64,000 nucleotides of DNA from Ferrimicrobium sp. (GTDB taxonomy: Bacteria; Actinomycetota; Acidimicrobiia; Acidimicrobiales; Acidimicrobiaceae): the NCBI RefSeq assembly GCF_027319265.1, contig NZ_DAHVNP010000059.1:1-64000 (forward strand), read 5' to 3'. A program made the position numbers and the translations under genes. Positions 14,163 to 24,247 of this stretch are shown piece after piece; positions within the stretch are counted from its first letter, which is position 1, and every line of letters starts with the position of its first letter. Under the pieces are notes generated by a model. The model had not been told where the DNA came from, made no database searches, and saw only the letters and a program-made list of their open reading frames with translations.

Positions 14163-15581
14163 ATGAAGAGCTTTTACGTCAAGACATTTGGATGCCAGAT
14201 GAATGAGAATGATTCTGAGCGTATTGTGGCGTTGTTGCGCCGTCAGGGCATGACGCCAGCGACCTCAGAAGAGATTGCTGATGTGGTGGTCTTTAACACC
14301 TGCACCATACGGGAGAACGCTGATAATAGGTTCTTTGGGCAGGTCAATAAGTTGAGGGAGCGACGTGCGGCCGATTCGCATCTACGGATTGTGGTGGCAG
14401 GATGTTTGGCGCAGGGTGAACAAGAGGCGATCTTTGATCGGGCTCCCCATGTCGATGTCGTCGTCGGTACGCATGCGTTGGCGTCGATCGTGGAGTTGCT
14501 CGAACGTAGCGATCAAGAGCGCCGGGTGATCGACGTGAGAGAGATAGCCCAAGGACCTGATCCGCTGGCTGATCTTGGTGCCGAGCCGACGGAGGGACAC
14601 AAGGCTTGGGTGACCATTCAAACCGGATGCGACAACAACTGTGCCTTTTGCATCGTTCCCCAGGTGCGAGGGGGTGAGGTCAGCCGTCCTTTCCAGGCAG
14701 TCGTGGATGAGGTGCGCAGCCTTGCATCGCAAGGGGTGACCGAGGTCACGCTTCTGGGGCAGAATGTCAATTCCTACGGACGCGACCTTACTCGACGGTT
14801 GCGCACCGAGCAGGAAGGTTCGCATGACCGAGGTTACTTGACAGGACAAGTCTATGTCAGCGGCTCCATCGCAAGGATTCGCCCTCTCTTCGCCGATCTC
14901 TTGCGAGCCGTTGGTGCAGTTGACGGGATACGTCGTGTGCGGTTTACCTCACCGCATCCCAAGGATATGCGCGAGGAGACGTTTCGCGCGATGGCGGATT
15001 CACCAGCGGTGTGTGAGAGCCTACACTTCCCGTTACAGTCTGGCAGTGACCGCGTGCTCGCGGCGATGCATCGAGGGTATCGTGGCGCACGGTTTTTCGA
15101 AAAGCTTACCCAGGCAAGGGAGATCGTACCTGACCTTGCCGTGACCACTGATATCATTGTCGGTTTTCCTGGTGAGACCGATGAGGATTTCGAGGCCACA
15201 CTGGAGTTGGTGGCCCGGTGTGAGTTTGATTCCGCCTTCACCTTTATCTATTCGCCGCGTCCTGGCACCGAGGCCGGTGCTTGGACGGATCGTTTCGTCG
15301 ACCCGGAGGTAATCGCGCAACGATTCGCGCAGCTCAAGCTCGTGACTGAACGAAGTGCCTCGGCTAAACATCGGGATCGTGTCGGTCGTGTCGAGGAGAT
15401 CCTCATCGATGGTCCTTCGAAGCGGGATGCCTTAGTCGCCTCGGGGCGGACGCGGCAAAACAAGTTGGTCCATTTGACTGGGTTTGATGGCGAACGCAAT
15501 CGGGGACGTTACGTGCAGGCCCGTATTGTCGACGCTGGTGCCCATTTTCTCCATGGAGAGATCTTGGAGGCGCCCCGCTGA
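14163..15581 (+). CDS. miaB: tRNA-2-methylthio-N6-dimethylallyladenosine synthase
   Basis: A radical-SAM methylthiotransferase acting on i6A37 of tRNA, the product of MiaA encoded 7 kb downstream. The N-terminal UPF0004 domain shows its three cluster cysteines C11, C47 and C81; the radical-SAM CxxxCxxC is C156-C160-C163 (CDNNCAFC). A TRAM-like domain ends the protein. At 472 residues it is normal, with a short extra loop around residues 218-240. The start is the first codon of the canonical N-terminus, and the transcript looks nearly leaderless. Confidence 0.96.
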   Translation: MKSFYVKTFGCQMNENDSERIVALLRRQGMTPATSEEIADVVVFNTCTIRENADNRFFGQVNKLRERRAADSHLRIVVAGCLAQGEQEAIFDRAPHVDVVVGTHALASIVELLERSDQERRVIDVREIAQGPDPLADLGAEPTEGHKAWVTIQTGCDNNCAFCIVPQVRGGEVSRPFQAVVDEVRSLASQGVTEVTLLGQNVNSYGRDLTRRLRTEQEGSHDRGYLTGQVYVSGSIARIRPLFADLLRAVGAVDGIRRVRFTSPHPKDMREETFRAMADSPAVCESLHFPLQSGSDRVLAAMHRGYRGARFFEKLTQAREIVPDLAVTTDIIVGFPGETDEDFEATLELVARCEFDSAFTFIYSPRPGTEAGAWTDRFVDPEVIAQRFAQLKLVTERSASAKHRDRVGRVEEILIDGPSKRDALVASGRTRQNKLVHLTGFDGERNRGRYVQARIVDAGAHFLHGEILEAPR

Positions 15582-20747: not shown

Positions 20748-20840
20748 CCGCCACAGCGGATGGGACGCACGGATTGAGCTACGGGATCGGGTCTTCGTCG
20801 TTGCCTCCATCCTAGTGGCTAGGCTGGACAGGGTAGGTGC

Positions 20841-22931
20841 ATGATCGATTGGGCTGGTGAGGGAGGACGAACGCGAAAGTTAACGGGTGTAGCGATCGTA
20901 GGACCGACGGCGTCGGGCAAGACCGAGTTTGCCCATGTGCTTGCCCATAGACGGCGTGATCTTGTGCCGGTCGCTGTTGATGCGCTGACGGTCTATAAGG
21001 CGCTACCCATCACCACAGCGATGCCAGAACCGACGGCCATTGCTGAACTCGACTATCGATGTGTAGCGCATGTGCCTGTTGATGAGGAGTACTCCCTCGG
21101 TCAGTTCCTTCAGGACCTTGATCGTGAGCTGTGTCGACTCAGCGAAGGGGGACAACGGCCACTTTTTGTGGGAGGAACGGCACTCTGGATCCGTGCGGTA
21201 GTGAATGGTTTCGTCCCGCCCAAAGGGGCACCTGGCCTGCGGCATTGGTTGGAGACTCGTCTGTGTGACGACGCTGACGATCAATCTGCTTATCATCTTC
21301 TCACTCAACTCGACCCACGGGCGGGGGAGTTGATCGACCCCCGTAACCGTCGGCGTCTTCTGCGCGCGCTCGAGGTAGCGCTCGCCAGCGGTGCGACTGA
21401 GTCGGTAGCCGGTGACCGGTTGGGTGTCGACGGTCCTCAACGATACCCGCAGATTGGACTCGCGCTCGAACCAGAGGTGCTTACCCGCCGAATCTCGCTG
21501 CGCATCGAACACCAGATCGCCCGCGGATGGGTTGATGAGATAGCACGGGTGCTCACCATGGACCCATCACGAACAGCGCGTGCCGCGATCGGTGTCACAG
21601 AGCTCAGCGACTACCTCGCAGGCAAATCCTCCCTTGATGAGGCGATTGAACGCATCGCGCGACGAACCCGCCGCCTCGTCAAGCGTCAGTTGAGTTGGCT
21701 GCGACGAGATCCTCGGATCGTGTGGGTGTCGAGTATCGACGAAGGATTACACCAGGCTGATCGGCTTCTCGACCAGATAGTGAGCGGACATTGGAGCCCA
21801 GACACAATCCATGGTCCTCGCAGGGCCGCCGGGCCTTTCGCAGAGAGCCCAGCCAAAGAGAATTGGATCGAGAACGATCTGGGGGAGATCGATCCAGCGT
21901 TTGTCACTCCCGCCGCAGGAGCGCCCTACAATGGCCGCGATATGCAGCGAGTGGAGTCGGCGCTCGCTCAGGATCACAGCATTGGGGAGGGGGAAACACT
22001 CCGAGGGGTGTTCCGGCCACAGATTATCGAGAGGAGAGATGACGAGTTGCAAGTAGTGAAATATACGGGAGCAGGCAATGATTTTCTGATTGGGGAGATG
22101 CCGAGCCAGCTGCCTGATGGTGTCATGATCTCGGCGTTGCTCGATCGGAGCCATGGGGTGGGCGCTGACGGACTGATCCTCGTTGAGGTAGCTCAAGGGG
22201 CTCAGCCACGGATGCACCTCTATAACCAAGATGGATCGCGCGCTGAGATGAGTGGGAATGGCCTACGCTGTCTCGGTCATTATCTTGTGGAACGGCATGG
22301 ATTGGGACCCTCACTCTCGATCATGACCGATGCAGGGCTTCGCTACTATCGTCTTGTCGAGCAGGGTAACTGGGCATGGATTGGTGAGACGACCATGGGT
22401 GTGGTGGAGATGACTATTGAGCCTGACGGGAGCTTTCTCGTCGATGTTGGGAACCCTCATCGGGTGATCGTGATGGGTGGGCTCGCCGAGCTCGAGGGTC
22501 TCGATATCGCTGCCGAAGGAGCTAAGCAGCAGGGGCTCGCTCTTGCAACCGATGGTATCAACGTGGAGTGGATTGTGCGCAGTGAGGACGGCTGCGTGAT
22601 GAGGGTTTTTGAACGCGGTGTCGGACCGACGATGGCATGTGGAACTGGTTCGGTGGCCGCCGCCTGGGTAGCTCGCTCTCTTGGATGGATTCGAGAGCGG
22701 GCGGTCGTTGAGAACCCGGGAGGTGAGCTTTCCGTCCACTTTGGGGCGCCATCGACGAACGGACTTGCCGCCGATAACGGCGACGAGCATGGTGCGCCGA
22801 CGCGATTGAGTGGAGCTGTCGATCGTGGCGAGTCATCTGGTGTCGTTCAAGCAGCACCGGAGGTATGGCTGCGGGGCCCGTCACTGCTGATCGCTGATAT
22901 CACCCCGGCTCGGTGGTTGTTCTCCTCATGA
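20841..22931 (+). CDS. miaA-dapF: tRNA dimethylallyltransferase MiaA fused in frame to diaminopimelate epimerase DapF
   Basis: One uninterrupted 696-codon frame. Residues 1 to about 315 are MiaA: P-loop GPTASGKT (21-28), VDALTVYK in place of the usual DSMQVYR, and VGGTALWIR. About 85 linker residues resemble neither family. Residues 403-696 are DapF, with the two catalytic cysteines in NGLRCLGHYL and ACGTGSVAA. MiaA prenylates A37 of tRNA; DapF makes meso-diaminopimelate for lysine and peptidoglycan. The neighbour order miaA-dapF-hflX is usual in actinobacteria, but normally as separate genes. An internal TTG (22047) with good ribosome site could yield free DapF, so fusion, dual products, or an open linker are all possible. 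Confidence 0.85.
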   Translation: MIDWAGEGGRTRKLTGVAIVGPTASGKTEFAHVLAHRRRDLVPVAVDALTVYKALPITTAMPEPTAIAELDYRCVAHVPVDEEYSLGQFLQDLDRELCRLSEGGQRPLFVGGTALWIRAVVNGFVPPKGAPGLRHWLETRLCDDADDQSAYHLLTQLDPRAGELIDPRNRRRLLRALEVALASGATESVAGDRLGVDGPQRYPQIGLALEPEVLTRRISLRIEHQIARGWVDEIARVLTMDPSRTARAAIGVTELSDYLAGKSSLDEAIERIARRTRRLVKRQLSWLRRDPRIVWVSSIDEGLHQADRLLDQIVSGHWSPDTIHGPRRAAGPFAESPAKENWIENDLGEIDPAFVTPAAGAPYNGRDMQRVESALAQDHSIGEGETLRGVFRPQIIERRDDELQVVKYTGAGNDFLIGEMPSQLPDGVMISALLDRSHGVGADGLILVEVAQGAQPRMHLYNQDGSRAEMSGNGLRCLGHYLVERHGLGPSLSIMTDAGLRYYRLVEQGNWAWIGETTMGVVEMTIEPDGSFLVDVGNPHRVIVMGGLAELEGLDIAAEGAKQQGLALATDGINVEWIVRSEDGCVMRVFERGVGPTMACGTGSVAAAWVARSLGWIRERAVVENPGGELSVHFGAPSTNGLAADNGDEHGAPTRLSGAVDRGESSGVVQAAPEVWLRGPSLLIADITPARWLFSS
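22031..22049 (+). promoter_or_regulatory. Internal ribosome-binding site and TTG start for dapF
   Basis: GAGGAGAG (22031-22038) lies 8 nt before an in-frame TTG (22047). Initiation there gives M-QVVKYTGAGNDF, the normal DapF N-terminus, and a 294-residue enzyme (22047-22931). A weak promoter-like pair, TTGTCA at 21901 and TACAAT at 21927 with a long 20-nt spacer, lies in the linker upstream. Confidence 0.65.
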
Positions 22932-24247
22932 CCCTCATTGAACGGAGCTTTCAGGAACGCATACTACTTGTTGGGGTAGCGGCGAGTGGCCGTGAGCGGC
23001 AGATGGTCAACGACCAGCTCGACGAGCTGGCCAGTCTGGTCGATACCGCCGGTGCACTGGTGGTGCATCGAGAGATACAGGTTCGCGAACGTCCCGATCC
23101 GGCAACCTATATCGGTAAAGGTAAGGTTGACGAGTTAGCGGCGCTTTCTGAGAGCTTCGACGTCGATACAGTGGTCTTTGACGATGAGCTGACCCCTGGA
23201 CAGCAGCGCAACCTTGAGAAGGTTTTAGGCCGGACAGCCATCGACCGTACCGCCGTAATTCTCGATGTGTTCGCTCAAAATGCGAGGAGTCAAGAGGGTA
23301 AGGCGCAGGTTGAGCTCGCGTTATTGCGCTACCGATTACCTCGATTGGTGGGTCGACGAACGAACCTCTCTCAGCAGGTTGGGCGCATTGGTACACGGGG
23401 CCCTGGTGAGACAAAGCTCGAGGAGGATCGTCGACGCATTCAAGAGCGCATCGGCCAGCTGCGTCGTGAGTTAGCAGCGCTTGAGCGACAGCGGCGGCTG
23501 CAGCGTAAGTCACGTCTGTACGGTCGCAACTTACAGGTGGCGTTGGTTGGTTACACCAACGTAGGTAAGTCATCCCTACTCAACGCGCTCACCGGTGCCG
23601 ATGTCGTGGTCGAGGATCGTCTCTTTGCTACGCTCGACCCTCGGACCAGACGTTTGAAGCTTCCAGGGGGAGAGACGATCCTCCTCGCCGACACCGTTGG
23701 ATTCATTCGCAAGCTCCCGCATCAGTTAATCGAAGCCTTCCGATCAACCCTCGATGCGGTGGCAGAGGCTGACCTTCTAGTCCATGTCGTTGATGCATCA
23801 AGTGCGCACGCACTGGACCAGATGCGTGAGGTGCGGGCGACATTGGCCGAGATCGGAGCGAACCAGGTGCCCGAACTGGTGGTGTTGAACAAGATCGACC
23901 TTGGGTATGCCACGAGTGATCTGCCAGCGGGATTCCCCATCTCGGTGGCGTCTGGAGAGGGCATTTCCGAACTGCTCGGGGTGATTGGAGACCGCTTGCG
24001 GGCGTTGAACCGGATCGAGATCTTTCGTGTCCCCTTTGATCGGGGTGACATTCTGGCGGAGATCCATCGAGAGGCTGAGGTGCTTTCGGAGGAGAGTCTC
24101 GATGGTTATGTCGAGCTGAAGGTGCGAGCCGACGATGCGGCGCGTGCACTCCTGCGCCGTCATATTGATGGTGCCGATGGTGGCGCCAGTGATAGTGCCA
24201 TTGACGGCATTCAGGAAGAGGTTGCCAACGATTCGGAAGGCCGATAG
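22928..24247 (+). CDS. hflX: GTPase HflX
   Basis: A 439-residue ribosome-associated GTPase involved in rescuing or splitting stalled ribosomes. The N-terminal HflX domain contains PATYIGKGKVDEL. The glycine-rich linker GPGETKLEEDRRRI precedes the G domain, with G1 GYTNVGKSSLLNAL, G3 DTVGFI and G4 NKID. ATG 22928 overlaps the dapF stop as ATGA; a GTG at 22913 is a weaker alternative. The last 25 residues are a divergent acidic tail. Confidence 0.94.
   Translation: MTLIERSFQERILLVGVAASGRERQMVNDQLDELASLVDTAGALVVHREIQVRERPDPATYIGKGKVDELAALSESFDVDTVVFDDELTPGQQRNLEKVLGRTAIDRTAVILDVFAQNARSQEGKAQVELALLRYRLPRLVGRRTNLSQQVGRIGTRGPGETKLEEDRRRIQERIGQLRRELAALERQRRLQRKSRLYGRNLQVALVGYTNVGKSSLLNALTGADVVVEDRLFATLDPRTRRLKLPGGETILLADTVGFIRKLPHQLIEAFRSTLDAVAEADLLVHVVDASSAHALDQMREVRATLAEIGANQVPELVVLNKIDLGYATSDLPAGFPISVASGEGISELLGVIGDRLRALNRIEIFRVPFDRGDILAEIHREAEVLSEESLDGYVELKVRADDAARALLRRHIDGADGGASDSAIDGIQEEVANDSEGR

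Follow-up and report, generated by a model that had tools for sequence, protein, structure and literature searches.

Several described systems share particular features with the miaA–dapF locus analysed here, from the acidophilic iron bacterium genus Ferrimicrobium, which lies in a window of 64,000 nucleotides (the whole stretch of DNA under analysis). In the case of SctQ/YscQ, one gene gives rise to a full protein and, through an internal start, to its C-terminal part. The study of YscQ describes the product of this internal start, YscQC, as interacting with the full protein and as needed for its assembly (PMC4295842). However, both YscQ parts belong to one structural protein, whereas the C-terminal part of the gene in the window is a complete, unrelated enzyme domain, and the internal start demonstrated for YscQ is a putative one in MiaA–DapF. 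E. coli DapF offers a second parallel, since it is reported to interact directly with RppH, another RNA enzyme (PMC4227774), so that there, too, DapF is physically partnered with an RNA-acting enzyme. The partnership is non-covalent, however, and RppH, unlike MiaA, is no tRNA prenyltransferase but works on the 5′ ends of mRNA. The NCBIfam family NF038284 (DapF/glutamate racemase) likewise names DapF together with a second activity, but the fusion scores 82.6 bits against its cut-off of 350 bits, and the second activity in the window belongs to a separate domain. Finally, the separate miaA–dapF pairs of relatives place the same two families side by side, followed by hflX, an aminotransferase gene, dapD and dapE in all four loci inspected; these pairs differ in comprising two genes with a stop between them, often overlapping or in different frames, and in having no linker. 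A MiaA–DapF fusion was not found in the literature searched, subscription journals lying mostly outside that search.

Compared with the separate pairs, miaA and dapF in the window occupy one frame of 696 codons with no stop inside it (Table 1). This had been proposed in a preliminary description made from the sequence alone, and the open reading frame, the Pfam models and the TIGR models all confirm it. The TGA stop of the fusion overlaps the ATG of hflX (ATGA). Residues 51–290 match Pfam IPPT and residues 406–523 match DAP_epimerase; furthermore, both halves score above the cut-offs of equivalog models, the MiaA half reaching 176.2 bits with TIGR00174 (cut-off 148.65) and the DapF half 154.2 bits with TIGR00652 (cut-off 114.65). 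The connecting segment of about 85 residues had been described as resembling neither family, and Pfam indeed gives no match of weight across 21771–22100, which contains the linker, the sole match there (E-value 0.078) scoring 13.6 bits, below its cut-off of 27. An AlphaFold2 model of the fusion (43 sequences) has a mean pLDDT of 82.9 and a pTM of 0.55. In this model, 421 of the 696 residues reach a pLDDT of at least 90, and values below 50 are confined to residues 1–11, to 328–395 in the linker, which is predicted to be disordered, and to 643–662. A Foldseek search of the PDB places structures of DapF and of MiaA at the top, together with O-ureidoserine racemase, a relative of DapF, and 6d13, from the E. 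coli DapF–RppH system, is among the structure matches. Neither half has a second match in the genome (2.88 Mb in 82 contigs, 95.9% complete). The same window also carries, at 14172–15563, miaB, which encodes the next enzyme in the MiaA pathway. The run miaA-dapF-hflX-aminotransferase-dapD-dapE recurs in five of the six other loci of the genus; in the sixth (G005, locus L035), hflX follows, and the aminotransferase gene, dapD and dapE were not found within 8.8 kb beyond hflX.

Table 1. Positions of the features of the miaA–dapF locus, in coordinates of the window.
Feature	Position	Strand	Description
MiaA–linker–DapF fusion ORF	20841..22931	+	696 aa, 75.6 kDa, ATG start, TGA stop
MiaA (tRNA dimethylallyltransferase) domain	20889..21770	+	aa 17–310, P-loop GPTASGK
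Linker	21771..22028	+	86 aa (311–396), fast-evolving, open in 7/7 genus genomes
GAGAGGAGA, Shine–Dalgarno-like block	22029..22037	+	codes E-R-R, identical in 5/7 species
Free DapF reading frame from internal TTG	22047..22931	+	294 aa, 31.0 kDa, putative second product
Ser471 codon AGT	22251..22253	+	position of first catalytic Cys
Cys600 codon TGT	22638..22640	+	second catalytic Cys position (ACGTG)
DapF C-terminal hairpin insert	22743..22859	+	39 aa here, 18–91 aa in genus
hflX	22928..24247	+	next gene of the run miaA-dapF-hflX-aminotransferase-dapD-dapE

In the MiaA half, the P-loop GPTASGK and the Asp of the D-S-x-x-x-Y motif, which we take to be catalytic, are invariant in all seven species of the genus and align with those of solved MiaA proteins. 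In the window, DALTVYKALPITTAMP stands in place of the common but non-defining MiaA motif DSMQVYRG..GTAKP, which the nearest genus and E. coli likewise match only partly. The sequence DALTVYK, singled out beforehand as making this half unusual, is present as described. At this position the genus has DAL[ST]VY[KED], while DAM[TA]VYR is found in the nearest genus and DSALIYK in the MiaA of E. coli. The change has the look of drift within the lineage that spared the Asp, and the MiaA domain would be expected to prenylate A37 of tRNA (i6A37).

The DapF half retains the second of the two catalytic cysteines, C600, and has Ser471 in place of the first, the residue that presumably corresponds to C73 in the numbering of H. 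influenzae/E. coli DapF. In a set of 105 distinct loci, drawn from the genus, from the family and order to which it belongs and from the best matches of the scan of relatives, the first position is Ser in 99 and Thr in one, the remaining five being unmatched by the search pattern; other DapF proteins of the phylum have Cys there in 18 of 20. At the second position, Ser (SGSG/SGTG) was observed in L133, L134, L135, L138 and L141, two of the 20 being uncovered at this site, and L141 has Ser at both positions. The genome yielded a single DapF homologue, which belongs to this Ser/Cys type and shares a gene run with dapD and dapE. For PddB, a related racemase, less than 0.1% activity is reported to remain after a Cys-to-Ser replacement, an outcome that the authors compare with earlier reports on the DapF of M. 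tuberculosis (PMC8225329), and in a histidine racemase the same replacement is reported to lower turnover greatly (PMC11602996). By model and fold, the DapF half is a DapF homologue with one defining residue missing, and because Ser471 stands at the first catalytic Cys, its epimerase chemistry is not assured. The domain would be expected to convert LL-DAP to meso-DAP; meso-DAP is recorded in some members of the class, one being listed as dd-DAP (PMC12263773). In addition, the DapF half carries a C-terminal hairpin insert, predicted to be disordered in part (643–662), which contains no in-frame stop in 286 codons across the genus, is absent in the nearest genus and has a shorter counterpart in the outside locus L099.

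The reading that we regard as probable is a genus-specific fusion that would also make free DapF by internal initiation, and the evidence for it lies at the boundary between the linker and the DapF domain. Here the preliminary description had placed a TTG at 22047 with GAGGAGAG 8 nt upstream, and both are found as stated, the latter at 22031–22038; the complete site, GAGAGGAGA-N9-TTG, spans 22029–22049. Five of the seven species (G000, G004, G001, G003 and G006) read GAG AGG AGA, nine variable bases and TTG, and the neighbouring and intervening residues differ among them. The other two, G005 and G002, do not share these letters, which counts against a second product; they use ATG at the boundary, preceded by AAGGAG in G005 and by GAAGGG in G002. 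Within the five species, three of the 43 conserved Arg columns keep a single codon, two of which are the AGG and the AGA of the site, and the same holds for six of the 51 conserved Leu columns, one of which is the internal TTG. Among 338 groups of four conserved residues, a group size picked after the site was seen, the internal site is the only one whose four codons are all identical in the five species, which share descent and so are not five independent tests.

The strength of this site was ranked by anti-Shine–Dalgarno pairing energy among the in-frame start codons, those near the 5′ end of the frame being excluded. The DapF start ranks first of 45 in the window, and 1/49, 2/41, 2/50, 3/44, 2/49 and 19/46 in the other genomes, the last being G002; a ribosome site with a start at the domain boundary is strong in six of the seven species and weak in G002. 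At least one in-frame start codon scores higher in each of G001, G003, G006 and G005, which also speaks against a second product, and in G003 and G006 one of these higher-ranked starts is the likely MiaA start. Judged from the codon counts, the conservation of the buried DapF start is not chance. Since the letters of the site are fixed while the flanking linker has diverged, we take the codon-level conservation as a sign of selection on the message, and hence of free DapF.

It is unlikely that the fusion is the sole product and that E-R-R is kept for the protein, for instance for a contact or for the edge of the DapF fold, and not for ribosomes. Such an arrangement would agree with a frame open in all seven genomes and with the weak ribosome site of G002, but the codons are fixed and not just the residues, and AGG and AGA make up 8.5% and 5.3% of the 318 Arg codons in these five genes; moreover, G005 and G002 do without E-R-R and have an ATG at the boundary in its place.

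The linker itself measures 86 residues in the window and 96, 83, 50, 50, 50 and 73 in the other six genomes. None of its 488 codons in the seven genomes is an in-frame stop. The two other forward frames contain 13 and 16 stops in 481 codons each (29/962), and the reverse frames contain 7/488, 11/481 and 8/481 (26/1450); the frequency expected from the base composition of the linker is 3.5%. To allow for shared descent, one linker was counted from each of five unalignable groups (342 codons), for which the probability of finding no stop is 5e-6, rising to 3e-5 if the stop frequency observed out of frame is used. Given this lack of stops in 488 fast-evolving codons, the frame of the linker is, on these counts, being kept open. 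In two close pairs, dN/dS is 0.57 and 0.62 for the linker, 0.20 and 0.07 for MiaA, and 0.09 and 0.08 for DapF; in two wider pairs, the linker values are 1.26 and 1.24, which count against the favoured reading, the alignment being untrustworthy there. An unconserved linker had been named in advance as an argument against the fusion, and the comparison of miaA–dapF loci divides this point: the sequence of the linker is unconserved, but its openness is conserved.

These properties also bear on a post-translational cut in the disordered linker, which would release separate working enzymes and leave the fusion as a means of one-message production. The predicted disorder of residues 328–395, the fast evolution and the variable length are what a merely passable stretch would present. 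Even so, we hold such a cut to be quite improbable: inspection of the linker alignment by eye revealed no conserved motif besides E-R-R, and cleavage leaves the conserved internal ribosome site unexplained.

Codon-by-codon reading finds no stop between the MiaA P-loop and the end of the DapF frame in any of the seven Ferrimicrobium genomes, among which the protein identity of the fusions falls to 59%. A total of 129 loci were classified as fused (16, all from these seven genomes), separate (108) or incomplete (five, which were dropped), and removal of duplicate contigs left seven fused and 98 separate distinct loci. The fusion was found in none of these 98 relatives, which form a non-random sample, 79 of them coming from a scan of which the best 80 of 348 were taken. 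In the separate loci, the aligned start of DapF lies −17 to 116 bases from the miaA stop, with one at 1110, and 17 of the 98 have both genes in the same frame with a stop between them. In three relatives (L012, L015 and L017), no in-frame ATG, GTG or TTG was found near the start of the separate DapF.

Among the matches listed by a phylum-wide search of 149 genomes, only the window's own spans both halves; this absence is weak evidence, because a fusion with a different linker could give two matches, as happens in three genomes of the genus. The listed matches include 21 adjacent pairs, only one of which, in G072, is in the same frame (frames worked out by hand). A check of 20 distant stretches of the phylum found both halves in 13 and a fusion in none of the 13, G072 having a TGA between the halves. 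Two further candidates, G017 and G033, were set aside: both halves share an open-frame number, yet a stop lies between them. A scan of viral contigs for a relative gave 34 pattern-matching stretches and no confirmed one, and an origin from a phage or virus was rejected on this result. On the sequences compared, the fusion is real and genus-wide, and within what was searched it is restricted to one genus.

The best outside match by identity (48–50%), taken as the nearest genus, is g5 (genomes G010 and G016, loci L040 and L041), in which the two genes share 14 nt, read in different frames, and AAAGGAG precedes the ATG of dapF. If this arrangement is ancestral, the fusion required a change of frame and not the loss of a stop alone, so a simple loss of the miaA stop would be too simple a route. 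The MiaA of the nearest genus ends about where the linker of the window begins, and the linker has no counterpart there; it therefore looks like new coding sequence. Its repeats, of the EEGP type in G004 and RGSGAT in G001, suggest growth by in-frame duplication. The preliminary description had offered either a real bifunctional protein or a lost stop with two products. The present comparison favours a conserved fusion together with free DapF, but the lost-stop route is insufficient, because the genes of the nearest genus are in different frames and the linker is missing from them.

A recent accident, in which the miaA stop was lost without consequence, is very improbable. The two genes do adjoin or overlap in relatives, but the whole genus examined carries the fusion despite its divergence, the genes of the nearest genus lie in different frames, and the linkers are free of stops; the spread of the fusion across the genus refutes a recent stop loss. 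A sequencing or assembly error that restored the frame in the linker, raised beforehand as an objection, is practically ruled out, for although the assembly behind the window is a draft in 82 contigs, seven genomes agree.

The fusion begins with ATG ATC in the window and in G004, and G003 and G006 have TTG ATC at this place. Two genomes depart from this pattern, which counts against the making of both products: in G001 an in-frame TGA precedes the P-loop by 16 codons and no in-frame ATG, GTG or TTG intervenes, and in G002 the sole in-frame start codon is a TTG two codons before the P-loop. A sequence error at the 5′ end of G001 is possible, because the coverage of its contig is 3.5. A draft error, an odd start codon and decay of the MiaA start are the alternatives for the two genomes, and the gaps bear on the fused product in these two. 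Six of the seven species conserve a block upstream of the fusion, reading GGGTCTTCGTC ... GCTAGGCT at about 20788–20825, which is perhaps a promoter close to the start codon.

In the proposed mechanism of a fusion accompanied by free DapF, ribosomes from the miaA start would produce the 696-residue protein, comprising the MiaA domain, a flexible linker and the DapF domain. A second set of ribosomes would enter at the internal site and produce free DapF. DapF works as a dimer; cells would therefore hold free DapF dimers along with mixed dimers bearing one or two tethered MiaA units. We infer the making of both products, their pairing and both enzyme activities. We do not propose substrate channelling, since the MiaA and DapF reactions have no substrate in common. 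More tentatively, the fusion may act as a functional tether, a possibility to which we give a limited chance. All MiaA of the genus would be bound to DapF, the internal start would set the ratio of free to MiaA-carrying DapF, and mixed dimers would form, so that the amount or location of tRNA modification would be coupled to the DAP/lysine branch; the partner would then be a Ser/Cys enzyme and not the usual Cys/Cys one.

Fused enzymes usually serve one pathway. MiaA, which modifies tRNA, and DapF, an enzyme of cell-wall and lysine synthesis, do not, and they are an unexpected pair for a gene fusion with internal initiation. The locus also warns that annotation may report one product only. The Ser that replaces the first catalytic Cys of DapF, in the window as in almost every relative examined, is relevant to meso-DAP synthesis in these bacteria. 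In Ferrimicrobium, two neighbouring genes appear to have merged into a single protein, with selection still acting on a ribosome site that now lies within the coding sequence; the locus lends itself to the question of how cells maintain the dose of an essential enzyme once a fusion has captured its gene.
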